IMG/VR virus record: IMGVR_UViG_3300027759_000056
Span: 47,977-111,976 of that record
DNA length: 64,000 bases
Source: a virus
Reading direction: 5' to 3' (one strand)
The notes under the pieces were generated by a model. That model was not told the DNA's origin. It saw only the letters and a program-made list of their open reading frames with translations, and searched no databases. The translations under genes were made by a program, and so were the position numbers. Of this stretch, positions 12,180 to 64,000 are shown piece by piece. How positions within the stretch are numbered: the stretch's first letter is position 1; each line of letters opens with the position of its first letter.

Positions 12180-12251
12180 GCGAGTGTAGTATAAAGGCTA
12201 TTACTCCAGCCTTCCAAGCTGGATATGCGAGTTCGATTCTCGCCACTCGCT
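12180..12251 (+). tRNA. tRNA-Gly (TCC)
   Basis: Acceptor GCGAGTG/CACTCGC, anticodon stem CCAGC/GCTGG, loop CTTCCAA, discriminator T. Confidence 0.94.
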
Positions 12252-12260
12252 CAAAAAGAA

Positions 12261-12460
12261 CCTTTTCTTACGGAAGTCCGATTAGCGCGGATGAAAGGAA
12301 CCTTGACTTCACGGGAGTAGCTACCCAATTGAAGCTTGAATGACTCAAGGTACTCTGTAATGGACCCTGCTCTATGGTGCACACATAACAGGTGATGGGG
12401 AACAAACCATCGGTAAAATCTAAACCCACGGTGAGCGTGGAAGGAAAGTTTCTTTTTTTT
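12261..12460 (+). ncRNA. Structured RNA C between the two Gly tRNAs
   Basis: About 200 nt without a coding frame. Helices: CCTTTTC (12261-12267)/GAAAGG (12293-12298) around TCCG-ATTAGCG-CGGA; ACCTTGA (12300-12306)/TCAAGGT (12345-12351) enclosing CTTCA (12307-12311)/TGAAG (12330-12334); GATGG (12394-12398)/CCATC (12407-12411); CCACG (12426-12430)/CGTGG (12436-12440), then a T8 run at 12453-12460. CTTGA (12335-12339) can compete for TCAAG (12345-12349). Family not recognised. Confidence 0.55.
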
Positions 12461-12535
12461 GCGGGAGTAGCTCAGGGGTAGAGCTTCAGTTTACCAAACT
12501 GAAAGTCGAAGGTTCGAATCCTTTTTCCCGCTCCA
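12461..12535 (+). tRNA. tRNA-Gly with ACC anticodon, CCA encoded
   Basis: The body is a standard tRNA-Gly (GCGGGAGTAGCTCAG...TTCCCGCT). The loop is TTACCAA, where bacteria have TTGCCAA, so the anticodon is ACC instead of GCC. Stem TCAGT/ACTGA. CCA at 12533-12535. A34 is very rare in glycine tRNAs. Confidence 0.88.
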
Positions 12536-12552
12536 AATGTAAATCTTAAAAA

Positions 12553-12587
12553 GGGCCCTTCCGTGTTTATCACGGCTTGTTGGGCCC
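12553..12587 (+). ncRNA. Two-tier hairpin between tRNAs
   Basis: GGGCCC (12553-12558) pairs with GGGCCC (12582-12587, self-complementary), enclosing CCGTG-TTTAT-CACGG (12561-12575). No T run follows, so it is not an obvious terminator. A processing signal is possible. Confidence 0.5.
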
Positions 12588-12603
12588 GGGTTTACTAACT
12601 TAC

Positions 12604-12675
12604 GGTCCTGTAGTTAATCGGCTATAATATTGCCCTGTCACGGCAAAGTGCCGGGTTCGATTCCCGGTGGGACCG
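12604..12675 (+). tRNA. tRNA-Asp (GTC)
   Basis: Acceptor GGTCCTG/TGGGACC, anticodon stem TTGCC/GGCAA, loop CTGTCAC, discriminator G as in tRNA-Asp. Confidence 0.92.
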
Positions 12676-12686
12676 CAAAAATAAAA

Positions 12687-12756
12687 GGGCCTGATGTCAA
12701 CGGCAGACCGTTTGATTTGCAATCAGAACGTATGGGTTCGATTCCCACAGTGTCCA
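12687..12756 (+). tRNA. tRNA-Ala (TGC), imperfect acceptor
   Basis: Anticodon stem TTTGA/TCAGA, loop TTTGCAA giving TGC, good T-loop. The acceptor GGGCCTG/AGTGTCC has two mismatches and position 8 is A instead of T. It may be divergent or partly decayed. Confidence 0.7.
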
Positions 12757-12765
12757 CAAACAAAT

Positions 12766-12841
12766 AGCGTAGTAGAGGAGTCAGGTTTATCTCATCTGCT
12801 TTGGGAGCAGAGGCACGCTGGTTCGAATCCAGTCTACGCTA
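12766..12841 (+). tRNA. tRNA-Pro (TGG)
   Basis: Acceptor AGCGTAG/CTACGCT, anticodon stem TCTGC/GCAGA, loop TTTGGGA. Last gene of the continuous part of array 2. Confidence 0.92.
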
Positions 12842-12862
12842 CTAATTATAAAAAAAATTTAC

Positions 12863-12870
12863 TATCTTTG
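12863..12870 (+). promoter_or_regulatory. Host-type -7 element before the lipoprotein gene
   Basis: TATCTTTG, 4 nt before ATG 12875. No clear -33 box. Confidence 0.5.
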
Positions 12871-12874
12871 TAAC

Positions 12875-13162
12875 ATGAAAAACATATTAAAAGACCCCCG
12901 ATTTTATTTTTTCCTATGGATTGTTCTATCTATTATTCTTGCCATTACGTTAGGAGCTTGTAAACAGAAACCTTTGATTGAAAAAGGTGATGTAGTTGAA
13001 AAGTTCGTTATTGATTCAATGGTTCAATTGCCACCTCACAGCACAATTGAACTTGACAGGAAGTACAAGTATTTCATGTCAGACAGCAGTGAGTTTACTT
13101 CTTTGAAGAAATATAACATTGGTGATACAATCACTTATGTTTACAAAAAACAAGGAAAGTAA
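12875..13162 (+). CDS. Small lipoprotein (95 aa)
   Basis: A hydrophobic signal helix (residues ~11-28) ends in the lipobox-like LGAC, with the lipidated Cys near residue 29. The mature domain of about 65 residues (KQKPLIEKGDVVEKF...) looks beta-rich and should sit in the host envelope. The host-type promoter suggests early expression. Phage lipoproteins often block superinfection or modify receptors, but nothing here identifies the target. I do not recognise the family. Confidence 0.65.
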   Translation: MKNILKDPRFYFFLWIVLSIILAITLGACKQKPLIEKGDVVEKFVIDSMVQLPPHSTIELDRKYKYFMSDSSEFTSLKKYNIGDTITYVYKKQGK

Positions 13163-13181
13163 TATATATTAAAACATAAAT

Positions 13182-13258
13182 GCCTGAATAGCTTTAATTG
13201 GTAGAGCACCTGACTTGTAATCAGGGGGTTGGCGGTTCGAGTCCGTCTTCAGGCTCCA
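13182..13258 (+). tRNA. tRNA-Thr (TGT), CCA encoded
   Basis: Acceptor GCCTGAA/TTCAGGC, anticodon stem CCTGA/TCAGG, loop CTTGTAA, discriminator T and CCA at 13256-13258. Confidence 0.94.
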
Positions 13259-13270
13259 AACACAATAATC

Positions 13271-13456
13271 ATGGACCCCAAGACTCAAATGACGCAGGAA
13301 GATTTTTTAACTGAATTGACTGAATTAAGTCAGTCATTTGGATTGTATGGTGAAAATGACAACTTTGGTGTTGATGGAGTTTACATACATACCCAACCAG
13401 AAATGTACATATGTCCGTGGGATAATACTCAAGGGGATTGTACTCATTTCAACTAA
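13271..13456 (+). CDS. Small hypothetical acidic protein (61 aa)
   Basis: I choose ATG 13271 (MDPKTQMTQEDFLTELTELS); the longer frame begins inside the tRNA-Thr gene. The protein is acidic and has two Cys in the C-terminal part (YICPWDNTQGDC). It stands alone between two tRNA genes. Function unknown. Confidence 0.55.
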   Translation: MDPKTQMTQEDFLTELTELSQSFGLYGENDNFGVDGVYIHTQPEMYICPWDNTQGDCTHFN

Positions 13457-13461
13457 TATTT

Positions 13462-13535
13462 GGACGGGTAGCTCAACAGGTTAGAGCAGGATGCTTATAT
13501 CATCAAGGTTGGGGGTTCAAGTCCCTTCTCGTCTA
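13462..13535 (+). tRNA. tRNA-Ile with TAT anticodon
   Basis: Acceptor GGACGGG/CTCGTCT, anticodon arm GATG-CTTATAT-CATC giving TAT. Bacteria normally read ATA with a lysidine-modified CAT tRNA, so a genuine TAT tRNA would read ATA without TilS. Confidence 0.87.
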
Positions 13536-13549
13536 CTAAAAATTTAATT

Positions 13550-14122
13550 ATGAGCAACGAATATAATCAATGGTATTGGAAACTTTATAGATGGTTCAGA
13601 TGGGACGCTAAACATCTTCATCGTGATATTGCACAGGGTTTTAGAAACCTATGGAAATGGTTACCAATAATTTGGAAAGACCGTGATTGGGATGACCATT
13701 TTATTTTTGAAGTTTTGAAATTCAAAATCAAGAATACCGCCAAGTATACAGAAAAAAAACAAAGGTTTGTTGGTTGGGAAAAAGAAGTTAGATATATGAG
13801 AATATGTGAAACTTTAATTGATAGAATTCAAAATGAGTATTATCAGATGGAGTATCAAGATTATCATGATTTTGATATTAGTACGGTACCAACAGAAGAT
13901 GGTTTGTATGAAGTTGTCTTTGATGTTAAACGTGATGATACTGATGAATTTGTTAAAAAATACCCACACGCTCTAAGAAAAGCAAAAAAAGACCCAAGAT
14001 TTAAGAGTTATTTTAAGAATGAAAGAAATGGTTATCTTGCTGTGGGTATGATTAGACACGAAAAAGCAAGAAAACTGTTATTCAAAATTTTGGAACAAAG
14101 AATTGAGCGTTGGTGGGATTGA
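13550..14122 (+). CDS. Conserved phage hypothetical protein (190 aa)
   Basis: The N-terminal ~60 residues are unusually rich in Trp and Tyr (NQWYWKLYRWFRWDAK...LWKWLPIIWKDRDWDDHF). The middle is helical with ICETLIDRIQNEYYQ, and the C-terminus is basic (ALRKAKKDPRF...NERNG). No membrane segment or signal peptide is visible. The pattern looks like a conserved structural or nucleic-acid-associated phage protein seen in large T4-like phages, but I cannot assign a function. Confidence 0.6.
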   Translation: MSNEYNQWYWKLYRWFRWDAKHLHRDIAQGFRNLWKWLPIIWKDRDWDDHFIFEVLKFKIKNTAKYTEKKQRFVGWEKEVRYMRICETLIDRIQNEYYQMEYQDYHDFDISTVPTEDGLYEVVFDVKRDDTDEFVKKYPHALRKAKKDPRFKSYFKNERNGYLAVGMIRHEKARKLLFKILEQRIERWWD

Positions 14123-14132
14123 TTTTTTTCAC

Positions 14133-14140
14133 TATATTTG
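14133..14140 (+). promoter_or_regulatory. Host-type promoter of the 14151 tRNA and PspC gene
   Basis: TATATTTG at 14133-14140 with GTTGG (14109-14113) about 20 nt upstream as a weak -33. Confidence 0.55.
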
Positions 14141-14150
14141 TATAACAAAT

Positions 14151-14224
14151 GGACCTTTAGCTCAGTTGGTCAGAGCGGCTGACTCATAATCAGTAGGTCG
14201 TAGGTTCAAGCCCTACAGGGTCCA
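14151..14224 (+). tRNA. tRNA with CAT anticodon, tRNA-Ile2-like or Met
   Basis: Acceptor GGACCTT/AGGGTCC, anticodon stem GCTGA/TCAGT, loop CTCATAA. The body (TTAGCTCAG...GACTCATAATC...TTCAAG...AGGG) is closer to bacterial tRNA-Ile2, whose C34 becomes lysidine, than to elongator Met. Sequence alone does not settle this. Confidence 0.85.
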
Positions 14225-14227
14225 CAA

Positions 14228-24986: not shown

Positions 24987-25931
24987 ATGGCATTAGTAAC
25001 ATATTTAATAGCACCTTGTGAAGGACCAGCGGCAATTAACGTTGATTTTGATAGTAGTTCACTTCCCGTAGTTGGAGGTAATTACTATTTAACATTTGTT
25101 GGGTCAACAGATAGTGGATGTTATGAAATTGTTGACACTGCAGAGCCTGGTGTAGGTATTGATGTGGTCGCAACCAAATCAACAAATTATGGTGATTGTG
25201 CAACATGTCAAGGTGCCTCAACACCAACACCAACACCAAGTGTTACCGCAACTGTTACACCAACTGTAACTAAAACACCTACAGTAACACCAACAAAAAC
25301 AGTTACACCAAGTGTTACGACAACTACAACACCAACCGTAACACCTACTAAAACTGTAACACCGAGTGTGACACCGACCAAAACTGTAACACCTTCGGTA
25401 ACACCCACAAATACTATTACACCAACAGTTACGGCAACTAAAACGCCAACACCAAGTGTGACTAGAACACAAACACCAAGTGTGACTCCAAGTGTTACGG
25501 CAACTAAAACGCCAACACCAAGTGTGACTAGAACACAAACACCAAGTGTGACTCCAAGTGTTACGGCAACTAATACTCAAACACCAACGGTTACTCCAAC
25601 AAAAACAGTAACTCCAAGTGTTACGGCAACTGTAACAAAAACACCAACAGTAACTCCAACAAAAACAGTTACACCAAGTGTTACGGCAACTGTAACAATA
25701 ACACCTACAAAAACGGCAACACCAACACCAACACTTACACAAACACCAACACCAACACCGAGTATGTTTGCATTATCGGCTGGTACTGAGTATTTTGAAT
25801 GTAGATGGTGTCCAGGTGAAACACCAACAATTGAAGCTGTTCCACACGCAGTTTATTCAAACGCTCAAGGAAGAAGTGTTATCCAAGAAAATTCTGTAGC
25901 ATTAGGTGGATTTAACGGACTAAACTCATAA
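24987..25931 (+). CDS. Virion fibre-like protein with mucin-like Thr/Pro stalk (314 aa)
   Basis: The N-terminal ~75 residues form a small Cys-containing beta domain (LIAPCEGPA...GDCATCQG). Residues ~78-260 are a low-complexity stalk of Thr, Pro and Val in units such as TPTVTPTKTVTPSVT, more than 180 residues. The C-terminal ~55 residues (ECRWCPGETPTIEAVPHAVYS) form a distinct cap. The layout (head, extended stalk, tip) fits a fibre or whisker. Pro/Thr-rich stalks are typical O-glycosylation targets, and this phage carries many glycosyltransferases. A similar protein is encoded at 62543. Confidence 0.6.
   Translation: MALVTYLIAPCEGPAAINVDFDSSSLPVVGGNYYLTFVGSTDSGCYEIVDTAEPGVGIDVVATKSTNYGDCATCQGASTPTPTPSVTATVTPTVTKTPTVTPTKTVTPSVTTTTTPTVTPTKTVTPSVTPTKTVTPSVTPTNTITPTVTATKTPTPSVTRTQTPSVTPSVTATKTPTPSVTRTQTPSVTPSVTATNTQTPTVTPTKTVTPSVTATVTKTPTVTPTKTVTPSVTATVTITPTKTATPTPTLTQTPTPTPSMFALSAGTEYFECRWCPGETPTIEAVPHAVYSNAQGRSVIQENSVALGGFNGLNS
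25216..25764 (+). repeat. Thr/Pro/Val-coding low-complexity repeat
   Basis: Degenerate short repeats of ACA-CCA-ACN-type codons. It includes a 66-nt direct duplication beginning near 25429 and 25495. It encodes the stalk and would be prone to length change. Confidence 0.8.
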
Positions 25932-47221: not shown

Positions 47222-47962
47222 TTATTCAATTATGCCATTAAGAACCACATAATATAACTTCTTAAATCTTTTCATTGCTGTTCTAATTTCTTTGGTTGAA
47301 AGGTTTGTCATTTCCCTTATCGATAATAAAATAATGTTTTTATTAAACTTGTTATTATCACTACCTAAGAAAATAGTTTTGTAATTTTCAAATAACTCTA
47401 ACAATGCAATTCCTAATTTTGTTTCATTGTCGGTTAGTTGTTCATTTTCCAAATATCTTTTTAATTCATCTAAAAATCCTTGAATTACATCATCAGCTTC
47501 TGTTTTTTCAAATTCCATATAATAAACCATGTCCGGTCTATTTTCTAAATTTGAAGAAATATCTTCATACGAAACTTTTCTGTTTGTATCTTTTTGGTCT
47601 TTAATAATTTGACCCATTAAATAATTCTTACAAATTGTACCAAAATAAGAATACGCTTTTTTGTTTTTTGACGGTTTGAATTTATCAACTTTAGTCATTA
47701 AAAACGAATGAGTATCTGTGTGAATATCGATAAAATTCATATCTTTACGATATAATTTATACCTTCTAATGATTGACGAAATCATCTTATCCAACGGACC
47801 TCTTAAAAATTCATTGTAGATTTGATTCTTTTCTTCAAAAGTTTCTGCCGTGAGATACATTCTCACGGCATTCTCTTCTACAACATCAAAATAGTTTGTG
47901 TTCGTTGCTTTCCTACCTCTTTTTTTGGAAGTAGTTGTTGTCGTTGTTTCTGATGAAAACAT
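47222..47962 (-). CDS. 55: Late-transcription sigma factor (gp55-like)
   Basis: 246 aa. After a low-complexity Thr/Lys N-terminus, residues ~50-130 resemble sigma region 2 of gp55-type factors: YNEFLRGPLDKMISSIIRRY, MTKVDKFKPSKNKKAYSYFG, then CKNYLMGQIIKDQKDTNRKV. This follows the same order as T4 gp55 ([20 protein letters not shown] then a basic helix). The C-terminal ~100 residues are helical. In T4, gp55 with gp33 directs RNA polymerase to TATAAATA late promoters. The TATTTAT box in this genome may be its target. Confidence 0.65.
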   Translation of the reverse strand: MFSSETTTTTTSKKRGRKATNTNYFDVVEENAVRMYLTAETFEEKNQIYNEFLRGPLDKMISSIIRRYKLYRKDMNFIDIHTDTHSFLMTKVDKFKPSKNKKAYSYFGTICKNYLMGQIIKDQKDTNRKVSYEDISSNLENRPDMVYYMEFEKTEADDVIQGFLDELKRYLENEQLTDNETKLGIALLELFENYKTIFLGSDNNKFNKNIILLSIREMTNLSTKEIRTAMKRFKKLYYVVLNGIIE

Positions 47963-48768
47963 TAAACACTTTGGGCGTCATATTTTATATTTCTGTCATC
48001 AACAAAGAAGTATTCTTTTTTTGCTGTGGAAATCCAAAACTTAACTTCACTTTCAGTCATAACGTTTTCACCGTTTTTGTAATTCCAAAAAATTGAACCT
48101 TCTCTCATACTAGTGTGTTTGTATCCAAGTTTTGGAATTGTCATAACACGAGCTGTAAAGTAAGTCAATCTTAATAAGAATTCGTAAACAAATGTTAACT
48201 TCATTGATGATTTCATTGGACCAATCTCATCCAATTTAGATTTTTTAACAACCATACCAGCGGTTTGGAAGTTTTGATAATCTAATAAAGTGTCATTGTT
48301 CAAATATCCCATTTCTTGAGTAAAATTAGCGGCAAATGTTGCTTCATTTGTAAATCCAGCAAACACATCTTTAGAATCAACATCAACAACAATTGGTAAA
48401 AATGCGTCTACATCAGGATATATTTCAGTGTATTTCAATACATTGTCAAACCAAATATTTGCATATTCGTCATCAAATTCAAAGAATGAAACCCATTCAC
48501 TTGAAACATTTTCAATACCTAAATTGATTTGTGATTGGTAATTAGCCTCACCCTCAAAACGAATCAATTTAACATTTAAAGATTCAAAATCATAATTTTT
48601 TAATTTTTCAACTAGTTGTTCTTCAACTGTATGTACAATTAGTAATTCGTTGAATGGTACTTTTTGTACTTTAAGTGATTTAATACACTTATCAAAATAT
48701 TCATCAAAATCTCTTACAACAGCAGATTTTAAAGGTAAAATAACGGATAGATTTAATTTTTTTTCCAT
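47962..48768 (-). CDS. GT2-like glycosyltransferase (268 aa)
   Basis: GT-A type fold: N-terminal LSVILPLKSAVVRDFDEYFD strand-helix for the nucleotide sugar, then SFFEFDDEYAN (~95) with the acidic DxD-like metal site. No membrane segment. It starts at the base where the previous gene ends. It belongs to a minus-strand set of six glycosyltransferases whose targets are probably virion surface proteins or host glycans. Confidence 0.65.
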   Translation of the reverse strand: MEKKLNLSVILPLKSAVVRDFDEYFDKCIKSLKVQKVPFNELLIVHTVEEQLVEKLKNYDFESLNVKLIRFEGEANYQSQINLGIENVSSEWVSFFEFDDEYANIWFDNVLKYTEIYPDVDAFLPIVVDVDSKDVFAGFTNEATFAANFTQEMGYLNNDTLLDYQNFQTAGMVVKKSKLDEIGPMKSSMKLTFVYEFLLRLTYFTARVMTIPKLGYKHTSMREGSIFWNYKNGENVMTESEVKFWISTAKKEYFFVDDRNIKYDAQSV

Positions 48769-48774: not shown

Positions 48775-49818
48775 TTATTCAGCAATTTGAGCTTCAAAAG
48801 CTTCTTTACGTTTATTAATAAAGGTGTTGATTTTCTCAATCACCTCTGTGTTAAATTTTTCAACATCTGTGAACTTACTAGCAGTTTCCGCAGCTTCAGT
48901 ATAAAGTTCAGGTTTCAAATTGTCTTCTAACCATGTCTGACAAATATCAGCAATTACATCTGGTAATTGAATAACATTATCAATCCAAACTCCGTTTGTT
49001 TCGGTCATCCATGAAGGTGTTAAATTTGGTATTTTTCCAACAACAGGAACTCCTGATTTCATACACTCTAATGGGAATGTTCCAAATGATGATGTTGGGT
49101 CCACCCAAACACCTAAGAAACATTCTTTAATTGAGTTAGCAAATTCTTCTTGAGACATACCTCTCAAATCTCTAAATGTGAAGAATCTGTACTGTGGGTA
49201 TTTTACATAAAATTCTTTGATTACATTAAGACCTTCTCTTTGTTCTCTTGAGAAAATACCAATAATTGGTTTTGGTGGGAATTGTTGTTTTTCAAACACG
49301 TCAGCAATTACAGGTTCAATCACATCAACAGAAACATTTTTCATTGTTCTTTGGATATGTTCTTTTTGTAACTCAGATGTTGTAATACACTTCATAAAAC
49401 CAAATTGTTGCCAAGTAGCACCAGGTGTTAAAGTTTCAAACATGTGGTCATATGCCTGACAAAGAACGATTTTACCACAAGGTAAGTTTTTAACTTGTTC
49501 CATAATAAAACCAAAAATTTCAGGAATAATCAATGTGTCTTCAGGAGAAATTGCCAAATTAGTACCTTCCAAACATTGGTGTGGAATTTCATCGTATGGG
49601 CCACTTAACCAAGATGTTACTGGTGTGAATTCTTTTTTCTCATAAAGCATAATTACGTTATGACCATCATTTTTTAAGGTCAATGCCATATCGTAAAGAT
49701 ATTTGATAGAGGCTTTTGCGTTACCCCTTGTATCTTGTACAAAGAAGTAAATTCTGTTTAATTTAAATTCAATGTTTGCAATTGAACCTTTGATTTTTTC
49801 AATCATTTCTTGTTCCAT
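48775..49818 (-). CDS. GT4-like glycosyltransferase (347 aa)
   Basis: GT-B fold. The C-terminal nucleotide-sugar domain has FGTFPLECMKSGVPVVGKIP (~248-267), the E...G.P.V pattern of GT4 enzymes. The N-terminal domain has RIYFFVQDTRGNAKASIKYL. Family members use NDP- or UDP-sugars with retaining chemistry. No signal or membrane segment, so it acts in the host cytoplasm. Neighbouring glycosyltransferases suggest sequential addition to one glycan. Confidence 0.75.
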   Translation of the reverse strand: MEQEMIEKIKGSIANIEFKLNRIYFFVQDTRGNAKASIKYLYDMALTLKNDGHNVIMLYEKKEFTPVTSWLSGPYDEIPHQCLEGTNLAISPEDTLIIPEIFGFIMEQVKNLPCGKIVLCQAYDHMFETLTPGATWQQFGFMKCITTSELQKEHIQRTMKNVSVDVIEPVIADVFEKQQFPPKPIIGIFSREQREGLNVIKEFYVKYPQYRFFTFRDLRGMSQEEFANSIKECFLGVWVDPTSSFGTFPLECMKSGVPVVGKIPNLTPSWMTETNGVWIDNVIQLPDVIADICQTWLEDNLKPELYTEAAETASKFTDVEKFNTEVIEKINTFINKRKEAFEAQIAE

Positions 49819-51462: not shown

Positions 51463-52533
51463 TTAAAGAGTAATGTATATCCCTTTAGGCGATGTTCCTC
51501 GTTTGAAGAACTTAACATTACCGTTGAAATCATTAATCAATTCCTTTGGTAACTTTGATTCTCTTATGAATTTTTCACTTTCAATAATATGAACAGTATA
51601 ACCATCCCTTAGTAAGTCATAAACAAGATTTAACTTGGATGATTCTACGTTGGCCTCTGTATTGTCTTTATACCCCAAACCATCAATGATAAATGGTTCT
51701 GACTTATCCTCATTTAATTTGGTAAAATGTTTTCTTAAAAACTGATTGTGTTGGACATTAAAATCTTCAACAACATAAGGTAAAATAAACTCTAATTTAT
51801 TACGGTTACAAAACTCACCAAATACTCTGTTATCTGCAGGAAGATATGGTCCCCCAAAACCAAAACCGTAATCAAAGTTTTTCTCACCAATTACACTATG
51901 TTTTGATAGTGTATCCATAACCAATTTAATTTCATCAGTCAAATCATAATTGGTTAATAACTCACCCATCATGTTGGCAAAGTTGATTTTATATGCCGTG
52001 TAAGAATTTAGAGCTAGTTTACACAACTCAGCACTTTTACTGGTCATGGAAACAATGGTTGTTGGTTTTTTCTGAAAATCAGATATTAAAGTTCCCACAA
52101 TATTTACGGTGTATGGGTCAATACTACCCACAATAATTTTCTCTTGTGATTGTAATGAATCTATGTAGTTATCACTTGATAAAGTAAGGGGTAAATAACA
52201 TACTCGTAAATTCATGGGAGTTAAGATGTCACTAATCTCTTTTGTATCACCAGGGTTCATTGTAGAACACAATACAACAATCTTATCCACCAATGGTACT
52301 TCTTCCTCAAACGCTACCCCAAAGTCCTCCACAACGTCCATTACGTTCTTAATATTGTATATGTTTGATGGAAGTATTTCCGTATTTACACAACAAAAGA
52401 TAATATCGGAGTTTTTAATAACTTCATAGTTATCACCATCAACATCTGAAACATAAATTTCATGTTGTTGTTCAGCGAAACAACTTAATAAATTTAGACC
52501 TAAATTACCAAGTCCTATAATACCAATTTTCAT
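51463..52533 (-). CDS. UDP-sugar dehydrogenase homologue lacking catalytic Cys (356 aa)
   Basis: The N-terminal Rossmann domain has GIIGLGNLGLNLL. The central domain has KLALNSYTAYKINFANM, matching the Lys/Asn helix of UDP-glucose/GDP-mannose dehydrogenases. The C-terminal domain has GLGYKDNTEANVESSKL. The active-site loop, normally GFGGxCFPKD, is here GFGFGGPYLPADNR: the catalytic Cys is Tyr and the Lys is Ala. Without the thiohemiacetal Cys the full four-electron oxidation should fail, so this is a changed-function or pseudo-enzyme in the sugar gene block. Confidence 0.75.
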   Translation of the reverse strand: MKIGIIGLGNLGLNLLSCFAEQQHEIYVSDVDGDNYEVIKNSDIIFCCVNTEILPSNIYNIKNVMDVVEDFGVAFEEEVPLVDKIVVLCSTMNPGDTKEISDILTPMNLRVCYLPLTLSSDNYIDSLQSQEKIIVGSIDPYTVNIVGTLISDFQKKPTTIVSMTSKSAELCKLALNSYTAYKINFANMMGELLTNYDLTDEIKLVMDTLSKHSVIGEKNFDYGFGFGGPYLPADNRVFGEFCNRNKLEFILPYVVEDFNVQHNQFLRKHFTKLNEDKSEPFIIDGLGYKDNTEANVESSKLNLVYDLLRDGYTVHIIESEKFIRESKLPKELINDFNGNVKFFKRGTSPKGIYITL

Positions 52534-53153
52534 GTTAGTAGTTTGTCAAATGTTTCCATTTCATTAGATTGTACATAATGAAATGTAAAAACGTCTTTAA
52601 TTTTACTATTTTCCATTTTGTAATATTTTGGTGCCTGTGAATGAAATTCGTCAAAATTTTTATTTTCAATCCCCATTTCTCTAATACACAACCCAAGTGT
52701 TACATCTGAGTATCCTGAATCTCCTGATTTTATATTTTTTGATATTTTTTCTAATAAAGTTTTATGTATTAAATAACCAGCACCACCAGAACAATAGTTC
52801 AAATCTCTATCTCTACCCCAAGTTCCTTCAAGAACACTACCGTTAATTTTATCTTTATCAAAAATTTCAAAATTGCTTTCCAAATTTTTTGTGTTAACAA
52901 ATGTGTCGTCATCACAAAAGAAAAACCATTCATACTGATAATCATTTTCAATCAAATATTTTATAACATTAACATGTTTTGGTTCATTTGATGAATATGT
53001 AAAATCATCTGAAACTTTAATAATCTTTTTTTCTTCGTTGTCACAATCTGCGTAGAATATATAATCTACGTCTTTACCCCAACTATTAACAATACCGTCA
53101 TGTCTATCGGGTCTTGTACAGGTGTGGAGAATTACATATAATATTTTTTTCAT
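52530..53153 (-). CDS. Fringe/GT31-like glycosyltransferase (207 aa)
   Basis: The features are those of Fringe and core-1 galactosyltransferases: YVILHTCTRPDRHDGIVNSW at the N-terminus (RxxxxxxTW-like region), FFFCDDDTFV (~75) as the DDD metal site, YCSGGAGYLI (~120) and SDVTLGLCIREMG (~146). This family is abundant in animals and rare in phages. Animal members add Gal or GlcNAc to O-linked sugars. It overlaps neighbours by 4 nt, so the sugar genes are co-translated. Confidence 0.75.
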   Translation of the reverse strand: MKKILYVILHTCTRPDRHDGIVNSWGKDVDYIFYADCDNEEKKIIKVSDDFTYSSNEPKHVNVIKYLIENDYQYEWFFFCDDDTFVNTKNLESNFEIFDKDKINGSVLEGTWGRDRDLNYCSGGAGYLIHKTLLEKISKNIKSGDSGYSDVTLGLCIREMGIENKNFDEFHSQAPKYYKMENSKIKDVFTFHYVQSNEMETFDKLLT

Positions 53154-53812
53154 AATACTGCCAAGTGGTCTGTCCCAACTGGTGTATCATTGTGGTCAAT
53201 ACGACTTCCAATAAATTCACCAGGATTTCTCTTGATAGGGAAGGGTTTATTTTCAAAGAATTCATCGTGAGTACATCTGTCATCTTGGAAAATGGAATAA
53301 ATTGTTTTTAAGAACGTTTGGTCATTACCATATTGAAGTTCTTTTGATTTTGGAAATCTTTTGATTAGGTCGGTAAGGGGTATGATACCTGATTTAATAC
53401 CCCACATTCCACCTAAGATACCCAAACCAGAATTTCCATAAGGAATCCTATGTGCTGGGTGGTCTCTCATTACATGGATTGATTTTCCACTATTAATCCA
53501 TTCATCAACTGCTAATTTTTCTCGTTCAGTTAAACGAGCGTCGGCATCTCTGAATATGGAATATTGACAATCAGATTCATCGTGAGCAAAAAACCTCCAA
53601 AACATACCATAAATGTCGGTACCTGTCATATCTTTTACTACCACATCCAATTCTTTTAGTTTGTCAATTGTTTCAGAAGGTACTGTGTTATCGTAATAAA
53701 CAATCATTTTCCAATCAGGGTAGATTGTTTTCATAAGTTCAGCATTTCTGATTGCACCAACATTATATATTGGTTGATTTCCCCACAAACTAAAACTTAC
53801 GTAATTTGTCAT
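53150..53812 (-). CDS. Putative GT-A glycosyltransferase (220 aa)
   Basis: The start is MTNYVSFSLWGNQPIYNVGA; the metal site is probably SIFRDADARLTEREK (~83-95), a DxD. The sequence MRDHPAHRIPYGNSGLGILGG follows. The pattern fits a group of small galactosyl/mannosyl-type enzymes often seen with O-antigen or fibre-glycan genes. Overlaps both neighbours by 4 nt. Confidence 0.6.
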   Translation of the reverse strand: MTNYVSFSLWGNQPIYNVGAIRNAELMKTIYPDWKMIVYYDNTVPSETIDKLKELDVVVKDMTGTDIYGMFWRFFAHDESDCQYSIFRDADARLTEREKLAVDEWINSGKSIHVMRDHPAHRIPYGNSGLGILGGMWGIKSGIIPLTDLIKRFPKSKELQYGNDQTFLKTIYSIFQDDRCTHDEFFENKPFPIKRNPGEFIGSRIDHNDTPVGTDHLAVL

Positions 53813-55239
53813 TGTACTTTATTCTCAAGTAATCCATTAATGGATGCTTTATCGTCAACAAAATGTCCTTGTGTTTTATGTGAGTCCATTTGATAATGTT
53901 TTAAGAAACCATTGGTTAGAATTAATTTTTTATTTTTTATTGATGCGAAAATGGTGATTGACCTTTCATGTAAGTGACCTGCATTTGGGTCAACTTTAAT
54001 TTCATCAACCATTGGTAACATCCAATTCATATATTGGTCAAATACACTTTTTCTAAATGTTGTGTTTGATGTTGATGACCAATAAGCCATCTTACCTTCA
54101 TTAATTGCGTTCATTAACAATCGTTGAATATCTACATGATATGTTTTCCTAATTGTTTTGAATAATGTCTCAATAAAGGGTGGGTGTTGAATAAACATTT
54201 GATGTGGTGCTGGGAATGGAATATACCCAATCATATCTTGTTTATCGTATATCATTTTTGAAATTTGTGGTAAAAAGTCAGGAACATAATTAACATCATA
54301 CTCAAATAAATTTACATATTCAGTATCAATTAATTTGTGTTTCCAAAGTGTATACCAACCACTAAATGATGTTAATTTTGGATAATCTTCTAAATGACCA
54401 TCATAATTACGAGATATGATTACATTTGGTAAATTTTCAACTTTATCAACAGGTCTATTACCAACAAACACGTATGTGTAGTCATTAAAACCTTTGAATT
54501 TACCGTTTTCTTCAAATAATTCAATCAAATCTTGGTCGTGTACAAAGATAAATGTCTTTAATTTTTTATCCGTTACGGTAATATCGACAGGTAAAACATC
54601 TTCAAATTTTTTGGAAAACTCAACTCTATTTGCCTCCCATTGTTCGTTAGTTTGACCAATAGATAAGTGTGTTACACGAATATCGGTACATATTCCAACT
54701 TTAACACCTTCAAGGTAATTTTGGAATGAGAATGTCACATCATAAAAGTGAAATCCTTTAACTGTTTCATCAAAATTCTTTTTAATTCTTTGTTTATGAA
54801 CGGAAAAGAATAATCCATCGACCATTAATGTAGGTTCAATTTTATTTCCAATTTCTTTTGAATACTTAGATTCCCATTTTTTACCTTCATGTTCGTGGTT
54901 TACGATACCATACATTGTTGGTTGTACTTCCCACCACATACCAGACTTTGGCATGTATTTGGAACCCGCTAAACCAATAATTCCGTATTCAGGATTTTTC
55001 TCAAAATGAGTTTTTATCTTATATACCCATCCACCAGTGTCAAATTTTAAGTCATCATGACATAAAACAACAATATCATTTTCAGCTTGTTCTAAAATTT
55101 TATTATAAACTTCTGACAATGAAAATTCACCATTATTTTCAATTGGGATTATTTGAACACTTTTATTACCACAACTTTTTTCTAATTGTGTGATATAATT
55201 TTCGTCAATTTTTCTTGTACTAAATCCTATTGTAATCAT
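53809..55239 (-). CDS. Bifunctional glycosyltransferase, StrF-type GT2 plus second domain (476 aa)
   Basis: The N-terminal ~220 residues are a GT2 domain of the StrF-like group: NDIVVLCHDDLKFDTGGWVY (~53-72) is the DD metal site, followed by GIIGLAGSKYMP and WEVQPTMYGIVNHEHEG. The C-terminal ~240 residues (FIFVHDQDLIELFEENG..., YVNLFEYDVNYVPDFLPQ) look like a second, different GT-A-type domain with an EYD acidic site. Two activities in one chain would make a disaccharide unit. Overlaps dUTPase by 4 nt. Confidence 0.65.
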   Translation of the reverse strand: MITIGFSTRKIDENYITQLEKSCGNKSVQIIPIENNGEFSLSEVYNKILEQAENDIVVLCHDDLKFDTGGWVYKIKTHFEKNPEYGIIGLAGSKYMPKSGMWWEVQPTMYGIVNHEHEGKKWESKYSKEIGNKIEPTLMVDGLFFSVHKQRIKKNFDETVKGFHFYDVTFSFQNYLEGVKVGICTDIRVTHLSIGQTNEQWEANRVEFSKKFEDVLPVDITVTDKKLKTFIFVHDQDLIELFEENGKFKGFNDYTYVFVGNRPVDKVENLPNVIISRNYDGHLEDYPKLTSFSGWYTLWKHKLIDTEYVNLFEYDVNYVPDFLPQISKMIYDKQDMIGYIPFPAPHQMFIQHPPFIETLFKTIRKTYHVDIQRLLMNAINEGKMAYWSSTSNTTFRKSVFDQYMNWMLPMVDEIKVDPNAGHLHERSITIFASIKNKKLILTNGFLKHYQMDSHKTQGHFVDDKASINGLLENKVQ

Positions 55240-55829
55240 ATTCCTGTTGAACCAAATCCATTACCGCCTCTATCTTTTCCATTAATTTCTGACACTTCTT
55301 TTGTCTCAATCCATTTGCCATTTACTACAGGACAAATACATGCCTGAGCAATTTTTTGACCTTTTTCTATATAAACAGTATCGTGTGATGTATTATAAAG
55401 AATTACTTTAACTTCTCCATCATATCCAGAATCAACTGTACCAGGTGTATTCAAAACTGTTAATCCTTGCTTCAACGCTAAACCACTTTTAGGTCTTACT
55501 TGCATTTCAAAACCGTCTTTGATGTTAAATTTCAAACCAGTACCAACAATCATTCTTGATTGTGGTGATATCCCAACACTTTCAGTTGAGTGTAAATCAA
55601 ATCCTGAATCAGTTGGGTAATTATATTTGGGGCTTACAGCATCTTGATGTATTTTAATAAACTCTAAAGTCATTTTAGGTTGTTTGTTGTCGAATGCTTC
55701 TTGTAATTCTTTCAAATTTACACCATGTATTTCTTCAACTTCAAATTCTGAAGTTCCTTCAGTTTCCTCTTGAATTTGTTTCAAGATTTTACTTAACTCG
55801 TCTCTTAATAAATCAATTTCGTTTTCCAT
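55236..55829 (-). CDS. dut: dUTPase with N-terminal extension (197 aa)
   Basis: All five motifs of trimeric dUTPases are present: DSGFDL, RPKSGLA, GTVDSGYDGEV with catalytic Asp, IAQACICP, and the C-terminal RGGNGFGSTG. It hydrolyses dUTP to dUMP, keeping uracil out of DNA and feeding dTMP synthesis. The first ~55 residues are an acidic helical extension (MENEIDLLRDELSKILKQIQ) not found in standard enzymes; it may oligomerise or bind a partner. Confidence 0.93.
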   Translation of the reverse strand: MENEIDLLRDELSKILKQIQEETEGTSEFEVEEIHGVNLKELQEAFDNKQPKMTLEFIKIHQDAVSPKYNYPTDSGFDLHSTESVGISPQSRMIVGTGLKFNIKDGFEMQVRPKSGLALKQGLTVLNTPGTVDSGYDGEVKVILYNTSHDTVYIEKGQKIAQACICPVVNGKWIETKEVSEINGKDRGGNGFGSTGI

Positions 55830-55830
55830 A

Positions 55831-56532
55831 TTATTGTAATTCTTTTAATTTTTTTATAATATCAATCAATACCATTACGTCTCTTTCACAATACTCAACA
55901 ATTAAATCAAGTTGGTTAAAATCGTAATACGCTTCATGTACACGGTTACCTGTCACTTCACCTTCTTTTGGTGATTTAACACCCATAGCCGCGCACATAA
56001 GTTCCAAGGATGATAATGCAAAGTTATTACCCATTTTCCATACATCCATAGTATCAATGGCTTTTATTTCCCACGGTTTTGTATCATATGATGGTAATAA
56101 TGGTGATGGTTTTATTCCATTAATAACCATACGTTTACTTAATACGGGTATATCAAAATTTTTGATGTTATGTCCACACAACCAAAAATCTAATTTGAAT
56201 ACTTTGGTTAAAAGTCCATTAATACCCAATAAAACTTCTTTTTCGTTATCACCTGAAAAAGTTTGTGCGTGTGTTTTTCCATCAGGTCCAACAAACGCAA
56301 AACTAGCACATACAATTTTTGAAAATTCAGGTACCAATGCGGCCCTGTTTACAAAAACCTCACCAGGAGTTAATCCTTGGTCTTCAGGGAACCTTTTCAA
56401 GAACCAATCAAAATAATTGTGAAATTGCTTGGTTAAAGCTGGGTATTTTTCTTCAAGTTCGGGAAAATCCTTTGTTATTCCGACAGTTTCAATGTCAAAG
56501 AATAATACTTTGTTTATAGCTGGTTGTATCAT
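55831..56532 (-). CDS. PolB-type 3'-5' exonuclease (233 aa)
   Basis: DnaQ-like fold: ExoI LFFDIETVG (~10-18) with catalytic Asp/Glu, ExoII CGHNIKNFDIPVL (~118-130) and ExoIII YCERDV (~217) with Tyr/Asp. This matches the stand-alone 'PolB 3'-5' exonuclease' family found in Bacteroidota and phages. It may proofread, repair or degrade DNA. No polymerase domain is fused. Overlaps the upstream gene by 4 nt. Confidence 0.82.
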   Translation of the reverse strand: MIQPAINKVLFFDIETVGITKDFPELEEKYPALTKQFHNYFDWFLKRFPEDQGLTPGEVFVNRAALVPEFSKIVCASFAFVGPDGKTHAQTFSGDNEKEVLLGINGLLTKVFKLDFWLCGHNIKNFDIPVLSKRMVINGIKPSPLLPSYDTKPWEIKAIDTMDVWKMGNNFALSSLELMCAAMGVKSPKEGEVTGNRVHEAYYDFNQLDLIVEYCERDVMVLIDIIKKLKELQ

Positions 56533-57740
56533 AATAGTGATTTATAAAATTCTGCTCTTGTGTGTGTAACAACATTCAAATCATATTTGTCTTTAACGGT
56601 TTCATATAATCTTTCACCTAAATCTTCAGCCCATGTTGGGTTGTCAATTAATTTTTTAACGTATTTGAACCAATCACTATGATTTCTACCCTCATCAACT
56701 AAAAGAGCGTTACCATCAACAAAGTTACCATGATTAAGAGAGTGTTTTAAATCGATTGAATATGGTCCAAAATCACTTGCAATTAAAGCTTTTTTGTAGA
56801 AACCCGCTTCAATTACTTTTAATTGTGATTTTACTTTATTAAAAATGTGATTTTTCAATGGTGCCAAAGATACATCAAATTTAGCATAGTTTTTAGCATA
56901 AGTTTGCACAGGTCTTGTCCATACTCTATGATAAAACTCATCTTTGAATTTTGAATCGTCCATTTCTTTGAACTTTTCCAAGAACTCTCTATACTCAGGA
57001 CTAATCAATTTGAATTTATCAGTAAAGATGTTTTCAAATTGATACCATACGGTTTCGTGAGGTTTAATATCTCTTCTAGTTTGTTCTTTGGTTTCTGAAT
57101 TGATTTCAGTAACGGTACCTCTAATATCAAATCCACAAAGATAAACTTGCGATTTGTCTTTATACGGTTCCATTCTTTGGAACAAATCATTTAGAATGGT
57201 TAAATCATGTAAGTGTGATGAACCACCTAACCAACCAAATCTTAATTTGTCAGATTTTTCAGTTTTTTCACAAAATTGTGGTTCTTTAGGATTGATAGCA
57301 TTTGGAAATACAACAACATTTTTATTTAATTTACGAATTTCATCCGCAAAAACTGTTGTTGTTGTTATAACATACTTGGCAACTTTTAAGTTTGCCATAA
57401 TTTTTTCGTGAATTTTATTCACGACAACTAAATCATGAATTGGGTGGTCTTTTGTTGGTAACCAATAGTCATCCAAGTCCATAACCGTAATAATTCCCAT
57501 ATCATTTAATTTTTCAATAAATGATTTTGATTTATCATAATCTAAACCAATAGTTCTGTGGAAATGTACAATTGGATAATCTTTCCAAAAGTTCATGTCT
57601 TCCATTGGAGGGTCATAAACAATATCAACGTGAAAATCGTTAGGGTATAAATTCTGTAAGAAAATGTGTGGGTCAATTGAACGGAATTTACCAACTCCTG
57701 TTCTGTCTGACGGTAATACTAATACTTTAATTTTAGACAT
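56529..57740 (-). CDS. GT-B glycosyltransferase (403 aa)
   Basis: I choose the Met at 57740 (MSKIKVLVLPSDRTGVGKFR). The N-terminal domain has VLVLPSDRTGVGKFRSIDP; the C-terminal domain has LRFGWLGGSSHLHDLTILND (~174) and VIEAGFYKKALIASDFGPYS (~330), the glycine-rich loop and E...A pattern of GT4-type enzymes. The middle carries an insertion. Last (promoter-proximal) of the six sugar-transfer genes on this strand. Confidence 0.72.
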   Translation of the reverse strand: MSKIKVLVLPSDRTGVGKFRSIDPHIFLQNLYPNDFHVDIVYDPPMEDMNFWKDYPIVHFHRTIGLDYDKSKSFIEKLNDMGIITVMDLDDYWLPTKDHPIHDLVVVNKIHEKIMANLKVAKYVITTTTVFADEIRKLNKNVVVFPNAINPKEPQFCEKTEKSDKLRFGWLGGSSHLHDLTILNDLFQRMEPYKDKSQVYLCGFDIRGTVTEINSETKEQTRRDIKPHETVWYQFENIFTDKFKLISPEYREFLEKFKEMDDSKFKDEFYHRVWTRPVQTYAKNYAKFDVSLAPLKNHIFNKVKSQLKVIEAGFYKKALIASDFGPYSIDLKHSLNHGNFVDGNALLVDEGRNHSDWFKYVKKLIDNPTWAEDLGERLYETVKDKYDLNVVTHTRAEFYKSLL

Positions 57741-57789
57741 AGATAAACTTTTACTGAAATATAGTAAGTTTATCACATAAAAAAAAGTA

Positions 57790-60386: not shown

Positions 60387-62540
60387 ATGGCTTATCAGAA
60401 CATTAATCAATATGTCTATAATAAATGGTATTTACAACCCGTGCAACAGGTTGAAGACCTTTCATTATCTAATGATGAACGTGAATATAACGAAGAAGTT
60501 GTGTTCTCACCTTTGATTATTGGTTCCAATAATGGAAATATTTTACCTGTAAAAATGGACTTAAATAGTTCAGGTTCAAGTGAGGGTTATATATTAGATT
60601 ATGGTGAATATGTTCCTGAGAACATAATTATTTCTGAAAATTATTATAATGATTTACAACTTGATTTAAGTTGTTTTTCATCAAAAACAATTTGTGATAT
60701 TGGATTAACTGGCACGGATAACGGATTGGTAACTCAAATGACTGGAGAAACCATAACATTTACAAATGGTTTATTACCCAACATTGATAAATTTGATAGA
60801 AAAAAATTCGATAGAAGATTAAAATTACACCAAGTAACAGGTTATACTTGGAATCCAAACCATAGATTTTCAGGTGTGACTGCCGGTACAATGTATGAAG
60901 TAGTATCGTATAACGCTTCTGATGTTGGAATTTACCATGAACTATATGGTGGTTTTTATCAAGGGTTTTATGAATTATTTGGTTATGATTATCAAATTTT
61001 ACCTGAAAGATATCCAAAAGGTTGGACCGTTGAAATGACGTTAAAACCAAGACTTATCAATGAGTACGTCCCACAATCAGGACAAACAACATTAAATGAG
61101 TACTACCCAAATAATTCGGGAATATTCTTTTACATGGGAACAAGAGCCGAAAACAAATATTGGCACCACGCAAACGGACCAAATTCAGGATACACCGCAT
61201 ATACTCGTGTGACCGAAACTTTAACAGGTGAAACAACTTGTATGTGTAATGACTTAAACCCAGGTTACACATCATCATCAACAACATATTTTAATATGAC
61301 AGAAGTTAGTGGGTTATTACTAATCAGTCCAAATTTATCATGGGAAGCTGGTGATGAAATTTTGGTGTATCACGATTTTGAAAACTATGTTTTAGGTAAT
61401 GTAACTGGTTATACCGCATCCACAGGTTATATTGGTTTTACAGTAACCGAAAGAGTTCATCCAACAGATTTTAAATTTTGGTTAATTGATAAACCCGACT
61501 TTTTAGAATATGCCGTTTCAAACTGTTATAGTGTTTACCCCCCAACAGGGACGACAAATTATCATTATACAAACACACCATGTTGTACGGGACCTCAAGA
61601 TTGGGTTGACGATTTAAATACATGGTACGACTCAATGTCAAACGCATTGGCAATAAGATTTAGTGGTGACCCCCACAATCCAAAGATTTGTGTAAGAACA
61701 TTAACATTTACAGGGGATTGTATTTTCACAGGAGCATGTGAAACTTTAGGAAGAGAATCGGTAACAGGTTATTCAATTAACAACTATTGTTCTACCAAAG
61801 GAATTTATGATGATTGTAGTGGAACAACATATGACCAACAAGAACATTGGGTGTTGATAGATGCGGTGTTTGAAAGATATACTTGGTTTGATACTTGTGA
61901 TTTAGTTTATCGTGGTGGATTGGGTGTGATTACATCGGTTCCATATACGGCATCTACGGACCAAAATTCTGTATCATTAATTTCACCACCAACAACACAC
62001 TATCAATTAATACCACCAGTGATTGAGTTGGTTGAATTAAATAACAATTGGTTATTGGAAAAAGATTACCGTAAGGGTAAATTTAAGATTTATGTAAATG
62101 GAAAACATTTTACAACATTTGAGAATGTTGAAGAAATTATTCCTCGTGGATTATACGGACCAAAAGAAACTCAAGTGGGTGTACCATTTAATATTTCTTG
62201 GGGTGGTGGAACACAAGGATTACATGAGAATTTAGTGTTCAGTGCAATGCCGACAAGTTTTATTAATCAGTATATTCAAGACCCTGAATTATTCCCACCA
62301 AATATTTTGAGTGGAACAAGTTTAAGTGCTTTGACAACAAACATATTGATTGAAGAAAATTTTGGGGGAACTTTTGATGGTGGAATTTCAATGTTTAACA
62401 TGTATGCGAAACCATTGTCGGTTCCTGAAATACAACATAATGCTCGAGTTCTAAAAAATAGATATAAACTTTTGAACCCATATTGTAAAGATTGTGAAGT
62501 CAATGTAGATGGGGACTTCTATTACGAATATATTTATTAA
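60387..62540 (+). CDS. Large virion protein, adhesin/fibre-like (717 aa)
   Basis: Start MAYQNINQYVYNKWYLQPVQ. Beta-rich with many Tyr, Thr, Gly and Asn and about 20 Cys in the second half (e.g. NCYSVYPPTG, CDLVYRGGLG). The C-terminal ~150 residues (KGKFKIYVNGKHFTTFEN..., FGGTFDGGISMFNMYAKPLS) resemble a concanavalin-A/LamG-type sandwich, which binds sugars. It is followed after 2 nt by a mucin-like fibre gene and should be part of the same appendage. Confidence 0.6.
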   Translation: MAYQNINQYVYNKWYLQPVQQVEDLSLSNDEREYNEEVVFSPLIIGSNNGNILPVKMDLNSSGSSEGYILDYGEYVPENIIISENYYNDLQLDLSCFSSKTICDIGLTGTDNGLVTQMTGETITFTNGLLPNIDKFDRKKFDRRLKLHQVTGYTWNPNHRFSGVTAGTMYEVVSYNASDVGIYHELYGGFYQGFYELFGYDYQILPERYPKGWTVEMTLKPRLINEYVPQSGQTTLNEYYPNNSGIFFYMGTRAENKYWHHANGPNSGYTAYTRVTETLTGETTCMCNDLNPGYTSSSTTYFNMTEVSGLLLISPNLSWEAGDEILVYHDFENYVLGNVTGYTASTGYIGFTVTERVHPTDFKFWLIDKPDFLEYAVSNCYSVYPPTGTTNYHYTNTPCCTGPQDWVDDLNTWYDSMSNALAIRFSGDPHNPKICVRTLTFTGDCIFTGACETLGRESVTGYSINNYCSTKGIYDDCSGTTYDQQEHWVLIDAVFERYTWFDTCDLVYRGGLGVITSVPYTASTDQNSVSLISPPTTHYQLIPPVIELVELNNNWLLEKDYRKGKFKIYVNGKHFTTFENVEEIIPRGLYGPKETQVGVPFNISWGGGTQGLHENLVFSAMPTSFINQYIQDPELFPPNILSGTSLSALTTNILIEENFGGTFDGGISMFNMYAKPLSVPEIQHNARVLKNRYKLLNPYCKDCEVNVDGDFYYEYIY
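62531..62537 (+). promoter_or_regulatory. TATTTAT box, 5 nt before ATG 62543
   Basis: The box overlaps the last codons of the preceding gene (Tyr-Ile-Tyr end), keeping the 5-nt spacing to the next ATG. Confidence 0.5.
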
Positions 62541-62542
62541 AG

Positions 62543-64000
62543 ATGGCTTGTGGTATTTTTGTTTCGAGTGTAAAATTTTCAGGGCAGACATGTCAAGTTA
62601 CTTTCTTAGAGGATGGTACTAATCAAACATATCTTTTGGGTGATGAAACTATTCCGTTTACTTTTTTTCCTTCTGATGGAACACCACAGGGAACATATTT
62701 CATTTATTTCTCAGGGACTGACACAACATATCCTTTGGTTGTAAGTGGGGCTTGTCCGACACCTACGCCAACGTTAACACAAACAAATACACCAACACCT
62801 ACAGTTACGACTGGACTTACACCAACGGCAACTCAAACACCAACTTTAACACCAACACCAACAATAACAAAAACTTCGGGAATTTATAACGCATTATTCA
62901 CTACTGGTAGTACAATATATAATTCATGTTATTCTAACAATACGGTTAGATTGTATTTTGATGTACCATTTTATACTCCGTTCCAAAATGCATATCTTAA
63001 CTCAAATTTCACAACATTTGCACCTGTAGGATATTACACAAATTCTGGTGTTGTGTATAGTTACAATGGTTTTGATTTGGAAAGTCAGGGAGCGTGTCCG
63101 TCAGTAACACCTACAGCTACGTTGACACCAACACCAACTGTCACAACTGGATTAACACCAACTGCCACCGCAACATTAACAGTAACACCAACAGTAACCG
63201 CAACTAACACTGTAACACCTACAGTTACTCCAACGGTTACAAAAACACCAACACAAACAATAACAACAACTCCAAGTGTTACATCAACTAAAACACCTAC
63301 AGTTACACCAACGGCAACAAAAACACCAACACCTTCAGTTACTAACACACCAACTGTAACACCAACTAAAAACTTTGAAGGTTGTGAATATTATATGTTG
63401 GTTAATGAATCTGATATGGGTAGTGTTATCTATTCATATATTAATTGTAATGGTTCATTGGTTACGGGTAATGTTTTACCACCAAATCCTAATGTTTATT
63501 TATGTGCTAAGAAAAATAGTGTAGTTAGAACGGGTGGTGTGGATTCATTGGTAATAACTGATTTGGGATTATGCCCGACACCAACTCAAACACCAACTCA
63601 GACACCCACAAATACACTTACACAGACAGTAACTCAAACTAATACACCAACAAACACTCAAACTCCAACACTAACTCCAACAAATACACAAACATCAACT
63701 TTAACACCAACACCAACTAAAACGCCAGCACCGTCAAATAATTTGACATATTCTTCAATACCTAACGATGATTTATTATATACCAACATTCCGGCAAATA
63801 ATATAAATTCTTTAGATATTCCAAATGATGATTTAATTTATACCAACATTCCCGCAAATAATATAAATTCTTTAGATATTCCAAATGATGATTTAATTTA
63901 TGGTAATATTCCCGCAAATAATATAAATTCTTTAGATATTCCAAATGATGATTTAATTTATGGTAATATTCCCGCAAATAACGTAAATGCCTCAGATATT
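62543..64000 (+). CDS. Mucin-like multi-domain fibre protein (partial, runs off the window)
   Basis: ATG 62543; the frame is open for all 486 codons to the window edge. It alternates small Cys-containing beta domains (MACGIFVSSVKFSGQTCQVT; a second from ~115; a third from ~278, CEYYMLVNESDMGS) with Thr/Pro stalks (~residues 72-112, 190-272, 345-395). From about residue 406 it enters 20-residue tandem repeats of the type IPNDDLIYTNIPANNINSLD. The first domain resembles the N-terminal domain of the 24987 product, so the two are related. Long extended adhesin; possible substrate of the phage glycosyltransferases. Confidence 0.65.
   Translation, partial: MACGIFVSSVKFSGQTCQVTFLEDGTNQTYLLGDETIPFTFFPSDGTPQGTYFIYFSGTDTTYPLVVSGACPTPTPTLTQTNTPTPTVTTGLTPTATQTPTLTPTPTITKTSGIYNALFTTGSTIYNSCYSNNTVRLYFDVPFYTPFQNAYLNSNFTTFAPVGYYTNSGVVYSYNGFDLESQGACPSVTPTATLTPTPTVTTGLTPTATATLTVTPTVTATNTVTPTVTPTVTKTPTQTITTTPSVTSTKTPTVTPTATKTPTPSVTNTPTVTPTKNFEGCEYYMLVNESDMGSVIYSYINCNGSLVTGNVLPPNPNVYLCAKKNSVVRTGGVDSLVITDLGLCPTPTQTPTQTPTNTLTQTVTQTNTPTNTQTPTLTPTNTQTSTLTPTPTKTPAPSNNLTYSSIPNDDLLYTNIPANNINSLDIPNDDLIYTNIPANNINSLDIPNDDLIYGNIPANNINSLDIPNDDLIYGNIPANNVNASDI
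62755..63735 (+). repeat. Three Thr/Pro-coding low-complexity stalks
   Basis: Degenerate ACA/CCA codon repeats at about 62755-62875, 63100-63370 and 63580-63735, separated by unique domains. Confidence 0.75.
63758..64000 (+). repeat. 60-nt tandem repeat, in frame
   Basis: At least four copies with an exact 60-nt period, at the window end. Copies differ mainly at one codon pair (ACC-AAC or GGT-AAT before ATT-CC). The number of copies beyond the window is unknown. Confidence 0.9.

Follow-up and report, generated by a model that had tools for sequence, protein, structure and literature searches.

A large lake phage encodes a genuine relative of the animal enzymes that build mucin sugars, a GT31/Fringe-family protein of 207 aa, within a glycan-gene cassette that is exchanged between related phages. 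Its close relatives carry, directly behind their Thr/Pro-rich fibre gene, a member of the GT60 family, which includes the enzyme that puts the first sugar on the mucins of Trypanosoma cruzi, so these phages probably glycosylate their own fibres. The stretch analysed (hereafter the window) comprises 64,000 nucleotides, bases 47,977 to 111,976 of the 111,976-base IMG/VR record IMGVR_UViG_3300027759_000056. The terminase of this phage is about 27% identical to that of Flavobacterium phage immuto, and DNA comparison with known phages returned only short matches to the dUTPase and PhoH genes.

A GT31/Fringe-family protein

The initial annotation placed a Fringe/GT31-like glycosyltransferase with a DDD site and an SGGAGY motif at 52530-53153, in a genome also encoding Thr/Pro-rich stalks of mucin-like composition and five other glycosyltransferases. 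This observation is confirmed. The open reading frame has exactly these borders but lies on the minus strand, the plus strand being full of stops, and its product reads ...WFFFCDDDTFVNT...YCSGGAGYLI...SGYSDVTLG...FTFHYV. Both Pfam profiles matched it above their curated cut-offs (Fringe PF02434, E = 9.1e-12, 45.3 bits against 21; Galactosyl_T PF01762, E = 1e-5, 25.8 bits against 23). Sequence searches of the PDB returned a beta-1,3-glucosyltransferase (12em), Drosophila C1GalT1 (7q4i) and CHSY3. The two Thr/Pro-rich ORFs and the five other GT-like genes are also real, although one of the five is a glycosyltransferase by context only (Table 1).

Comparison of structures with C1GalT1 and Fringe had been proposed in advance as a way of examining this assignment. 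An AlphaFold2 model of the protein (pLDDT 83, pTM 0.84) gave best Foldseek hits that were GT31 or CHSY3-type enzymes, with E values from 3e-11 (B3GNT2, TM 0.77; B3GalT5, TM 0.77; C1GalT1, TM 0.71; Manic Fringe, TM 0.67), indicating a GT-A fold of the GT31 type. D81-x-D83, W112, S122-G-G, D150-V151 and H192 are invariant in seven homologous sequences, and the C-terminal FTFHYV aligns with ISFHYV of C1GalT1. These positions correspond to the DxD metal site, the GGAGY-type motif, the catalytic Asp and the C-terminal His, with roles taken from the family rather than measured. The protein is thus predicted to be an inverting beta-1,3-glycosyltransferase that extends a glycan, although transfer from a UDP-sugar was not assayed and neither donor nor acceptor is known. 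It is soluble and shorter than the animal enzymes. A pattern scan of 84,980 genomes for a bacterial source of the gene found none, but the patterns were few and this is not proof of absence.

Table 1. Features of the window, with the observations on which each assignment rests
Position	Strand	Feature	Basis
278..14225		26 tRNA genes in the first 14 kb
24987..25931	+	Second Thr/Pro-rich protein, 314 aa, possible further acceptor	90 Thr and 41 Pro; counterpart at 53.7 kb of relative G012
47962..48768	-	Core GT2 glycosyltransferase	Pfam E 5e-8; 57-80% conserved; PDB GT2 hits
48775..49818	-	Core GT-B/GT4-like glycosyltransferase	Profile search E 2e-13; closest solved relative AmGGT 8xsg, kin of the adhesin-glycan-extending Agt of Actinobacillus (PMC12159676)
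50691..51425	-	PhoH-like protein, conserved right frame of the cassette	Pfam E 1e-63; at the far end of the cassette in the 33 complete loci
51463..52533	-	UDP-glucose/GDP-mannose dehydrogenase-like, 356 aa; C-terminal UDP-binding domain hardly recognisable, as in its relative in locus L001; may act on another substrate	PF00984 E 7e-13, PF03720 only E 0.09; PHROG 9148
52530..53153	-	GT31/Fringe-like glycosyltransferase, 207 aa	See text
52533..53848	-	Exchange zone in which relatives diverge at gene borders	Alignment with L007 ends at 53139; L017 ends at 53848 and resumes at 52533; L008 has five extra genes at 52536/52557
53150..53812	-	220-aa protein of unassigned family (RDADxR, MRDHP motifs), probably a glycosyltransferase; before the Fringe-like gene in nearly all loci with both (one other gene lies between them in L094)	No Pfam, PHROG or PDB assignment; conserved 44-95%; a second, 34% identical copy also precedes a second Fringe gene in a relative
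53809..55239	-	GT2-type enzyme (PF13712), first gene of the cassette; N-terminal 220 residues conserved in relatives, C-terminal half exchanged	Pfam E 5e-25; alignment; 79 related loci
55236..57776	-	Conserved left frame of the cassette: dUTPase, exonuclease, core GT	Pfam; comparison of loci
56529..57776	-	Core glycosyltransferase (PHROG 7162, GT4/GT1-like), conserved in the whole phage group	PHROG E 2e-46; 62-82% identity across relatives
60387..62540	+	717-aa fibre-type protein upstream of the Thr/Pro-rich gene	Weak laminin-G-like hit; homologues (MAYQNINQYVY...) at the same place in relatives
62543..64000	+	Thr/Pro-rich stalk protein, at least 486 aa, cut by the window and contig end; presumed glycan acceptor	113 Thr and 54 Pro of 486 residues; Thr/Pro-rich ORF at this locus in 55 of 66 related loci with enough sequence

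A variable glycan cassette

Seventy-nine related loci show a fixed frame, consisting of the core GT, exonuclease, dUTPase and GT2 genes, followed by a variable block and then by PhoH and two more core GTs. The block spans 2.4-8.9 kb in the 33 complete loci. The 761 ORFs fall into 180 clusters, among them NDP-sugar epimerases and dehydrogenases, aminotransferases, and fucosyltransferase-like, methyltransferase-like and other GT-like proteins; Pfam families were assigned only for the members scanned and the rest by reading the sequences. By simple hydropathy, 756 of the 761 proteins have no predicted membrane segment, and a lipid-carrier export route with flippase and polymerase is therefore unlikely. 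Profile searches of the PDB gave nothing useful for the core GT at 56529-57776 or the 220-aa protein. The former has about 25% identical homologues in Phapecoctavirus and related coliphages (e.g. Escherichia phage ESCO13, 106049-106996), in a four-GT cluster near primase and polymerase, where its target is equally unknown.

The borders of exchange are sharp. The nearest relative, L007, is 86.9% identical to the window over 9.76 kb and then unrelated from 53139 on, L017 diverges and rejoins at gene borders, and the extra genes of L008 lie between GT31 and the dehydrogenase gene. Only 5 of 50 group records searched hold a Fringe-like gene, which is thus an optional, swappable accessory. The GT31 records examined all have the Thr-Pro-Thr pattern, but so do most group records, and the gene therefore shows no significant tie to Thr/Pro stalks.

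Thr/Pro composition alone is a weak guide. Thr/Pro proteins are common in phages without nearby sugar genes. When loci with Thr/Pro stalks were taken blindly from the virus collection, outside this group, they were poorer in homologues of this cassette's genes than random loci (0.48 against 2.42 per 100 kb). A general link between such stalks and the cassette was therefore rejected, although GT60 was not among the queries in that comparison.

GT60-family genes behind the fibre gene of relatives

The contig ends inside its Thr/Pro-rich fibre gene, but relatives continue beyond this point. In relative G012, a 415-aa PF11397 protein (E = 3e-64) begins 57 bp after a 1314-aa Thr/Pro fibre and is followed by a second, 20-kb glycan island (G012:C1:93667-114000, loci L346 and L347) with GT10, GT25, GT61, a nucleotidyltransferase and its own pair of a 220-aa-like protein and a Fringe protein. 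This island is inserted between two conserved block genes, GT60 and that of a 557-aa HtrL_YibB-like protein; in relatives G023, G025 and G026 the same block stands without the large insert. The PF11397 gene lies 35-165 bp downstream of a Thr/Pro-rich ORF on the same strand in 11 distinct loci (L007, L009, L067, L083, L136, L193, L351, L353, L354, L370 and L372), at 55 bp in L007.

PF11397 corresponds to CAZy GT60. The studied members of this family start O-glycosylation on Thr of T. cruzi mucins and on hydroxyproline of Skp1 (PMC9472816, PMC3769586, PMC6939170). A model of the phage enzyme (pLDDT 80) had mucin-initiating GalNAc-Ts as its 16 best fold matches, at modest TM-scores of 0.42-0.51, whereas a PDB profile search gave nothing useful. 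A DSH motif (D92-S93-H94) is invariant and fits the DxH metal motif of such transferases.

Within the group, 25 of 51 records exceeded the PF11397 cut-off. These were 25 of 41 records with the Thr-Pro-Thr DNA pattern and 0 of 10 without it (Fisher p = 7e-4; p = 0.005 if a 21-residue piece at a contig edge of record G066 is counted as positive). Among 37 Thr/Pro records chosen blindly, 14 have GT60, eight of them without a strong match to the group's core GT, and 23 lack it. None of 50 random viral records has it, 22 of which are at least 40 kb (14/37 against 0/22, p = 9e-4). Because records are related to each other and often truncated, these values are guides only. No match was found in the window's own record, but as that record stops within the fibre gene this leaves undecided whether the phage itself carries GT60. 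Prolyl-hydroxylase-type 2OG-Fe(II) oxygenases (PF13640), which would allow hydroxyproline-linked glycans as in Skp1, were found in only 4 of 18 records (G019, G023, G025 and G085; L379-L381) and not in this one, such that hydroxyproline as the acceptor is neither supported nor excluded.

Isolated phages and related systems

In the annotated phage collection GT60 was found in three isolated phages only, XacN1 (ORF334, 46.6% identical), Stenotrophomonas RAS14 and CM1 (44%). XacN1 also has block partners at 30% and 40% identity and, beside them, a 3313-aa protein behind two baseplate genes with a T/P/S stretch of only about 74 residues; RAS14 has a richer such stretch. The gene after GT60 in XacN1 is annotated as a carbamoyltransferase and RAS14 has a similar protein at the same place (L376 13409-15706 and L377 13509-15809), suggesting carbamoylated sugars. 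At least two glycoproteins were reported in XacN1 by proteomic analysis (PMC5852040), the proteins concerned not being named in the text consulted. Mycobacteriophages likewise have phage-encoded GTs and glycosylated phage proteins, but their targets are the C-termini of capsid and tail-tube proteins rather than Thr/Pro stalks (Freeman 2023, cited in PMC12619734).

In T. cruzi, a GT60 enzyme acts on Thr of mucins and the first sugar is variably extended (PMC3769586), but that enzyme resides in the Golgi whereas the phage enzyme, whose activity was not assayed, is presumably cytoplasmic. Skp1 glycosylation is cytoplasmic and follows a GT60 start (Gnt1) with a beta-1,3-Gal transfer (PgtA, beta1,3-Gal/alpha1,2-Fuc; PMC6939170). 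Fucosyltransferase-like genes also occur in the phage cassettes, but the acceptor of the Skp1 pathway is one hydroxyproline; PgtA was not compared with GT31. Serine-rich-repeat adhesins and the Actinobacillus NGT/Agt system are glycosylated sequentially in the cytoplasm by soluble GTs, and one core GT of the window is related to the Agt/AmGGT family, although these systems are bacterial and Ser- or Asn-linked. The phages might be the recently described moraphages, which are large aquatic phages of up to 307 kb with mostly Bacteroidota hosts and four glycosyltransferase orthogroups in their core genome, as here (PMC12619734). Identity with that group was not examined, and no GT60/fibre link was found described for it.

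Discussion

We consider it more likely than not, with moderate confidence, that the GT31 gene encodes one extension enzyme of a phage-encoded, cytoplasmic, mucin-type protein O-glycosylation system. In this view, the Thr/Pro-rich fibre, and perhaps also the second Thr/Pro-rich protein, is made in the infected cell, and a GT60-family polypeptide N-acetylglucosaminyltransferase encoded just behind the fibre gene puts an alpha-linked HexNAc on Thr (or hydroxyproline). Core glycosyltransferases and a variable cassette (NDP-sugar enzymes, GT2, the 220-aa protein and GT31) would then build a phage-specific glycan, with GT31 adding a beta-1,3-linked sugar. Exchange of whole cassettes between phages would change the sugar coat of the virion. 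Our analysis demonstrates the family and fold of GT31, the family of GT60, the gene order, the swapping of cassettes and the co-occurrence of Thr/Pro stalks with GT60. By contrast, the enzyme activities, the acceptor, the order of steps, the presence of GT60 in this very phage and the purpose of the glycans (shielding, stiffening or adhesion of fibres) are inferred, as no biochemistry was done and no glycan, including on Thr of the presumed acceptor, has been measured on any phage of this group.

The initial annotation's interpretation, a phage-encoded O-glycosylation pathway for the phage's own fibres, is therefore only partly supported. The GT31 identity and the general idea are supported, the latter mainly by the GT60 genes of relatives, which lie outside the window. 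However, GT31 family members normally extend a sugar rather than start on the peptide, and the cassette also exists in relatives without Thr/Pro stalks. That GT31 glycosylates the Thr residues is not shown and is not the likeliest step.

The main alternative, which we consider possible but less likely, is that the PhoH-side cassette with GT31 modifies another virion protein, such as a capsid or tail protein, while the Thr/Pro fibre is handled only by the separate GT60 block. The presence of this cassette in records that lack both the Thr-Pro-Thr pattern and GT60, the conservation of four GTs throughout the group and the targets of mycobacteriophage glycosylation are consistent with this alternative, but the Fringe and 220-aa pair within the fibre-side island of G012 indicates that related genes serve both islands. 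It is very unlikely that the stalks are merely extended linkers and the GTs unrelated cargo, given the position of GT60 immediately downstream of Thr/Pro ORFs and its absence from group records without the pattern.

Glycosylation of modified DNA bases, as in T4 or TET phages, also appears very unlikely. Phage GTs often act on DNA (Pyle 2024, cited in PMC12619734), a core GT homologue lies near primase and polymerase in Phapecoctavirus, and the HtrL_YibB-like protein (L347 8415-10088) has a weak match in its C-terminal half to a TET-associated glycosyltransferase (PF20691, E = 3e-5), a DNA-modifying family. However, no dCMP/dUMP hydroxymethylase-type gene (PF00303) was found in this record or in the GT31-positive records G012, G018, G019 and G020 (118-295 kb). 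PF00303 occurred in 6 of 14 group records with scores typical of ordinary thymidylate synthase, and neither a C5 methylase in 14 records nor a TET hit was found, although the TET search had no positive control. Moreover, the cassettes are rich in NDP-sugar enzymes and swap like surface antigens, and characterised GT31 members act on glycans of proteins or lipids. Conversion of the host's O-antigen or capsule to block superinfection, which temperate phages achieve with GTs (cited in PMC12619734), is similarly improbable. Although the genes resemble O-antigen clusters, no membrane flippase, polymerase or lipid-carrier transferase is apparent, a second island directly follows the fibre gene in a relative and no integrase was seen among the ORFs read, for which no profile search was made.

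Virion glycosylation by phage enzymes is known from a few phages, with capsid and tail-tube targets. Here a likely acceptor (the Thr/Pro stalk), a likely initiating enzyme from a family otherwise known from mucin and Skp1 glycosylation in protists, and variable extension cassettes can be named together, and the isolated phage XacN1, with a related GT60 and reported glycoproteins, makes the idea testable now. It is somewhat more likely than not that a widespread group of large phages carries a complete, cytoplasmic, eukaryote-like mucin-type O-glycosylation pathway, in which a GT60 initiator encoded next to a Thr/Pro-rich fibre acceptor is combined with hypervariable extension islands that are exchanged as cassettes, some with GT31 beta-1,3-transferases. 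Each phage would then have its own sugar coat, a viral counterpart of antigenic glycan variation. If so, these phages vary their surface sugars by cassette exchange, which bears on adsorption, shielding and how mucin-type O-glycosylation arose.
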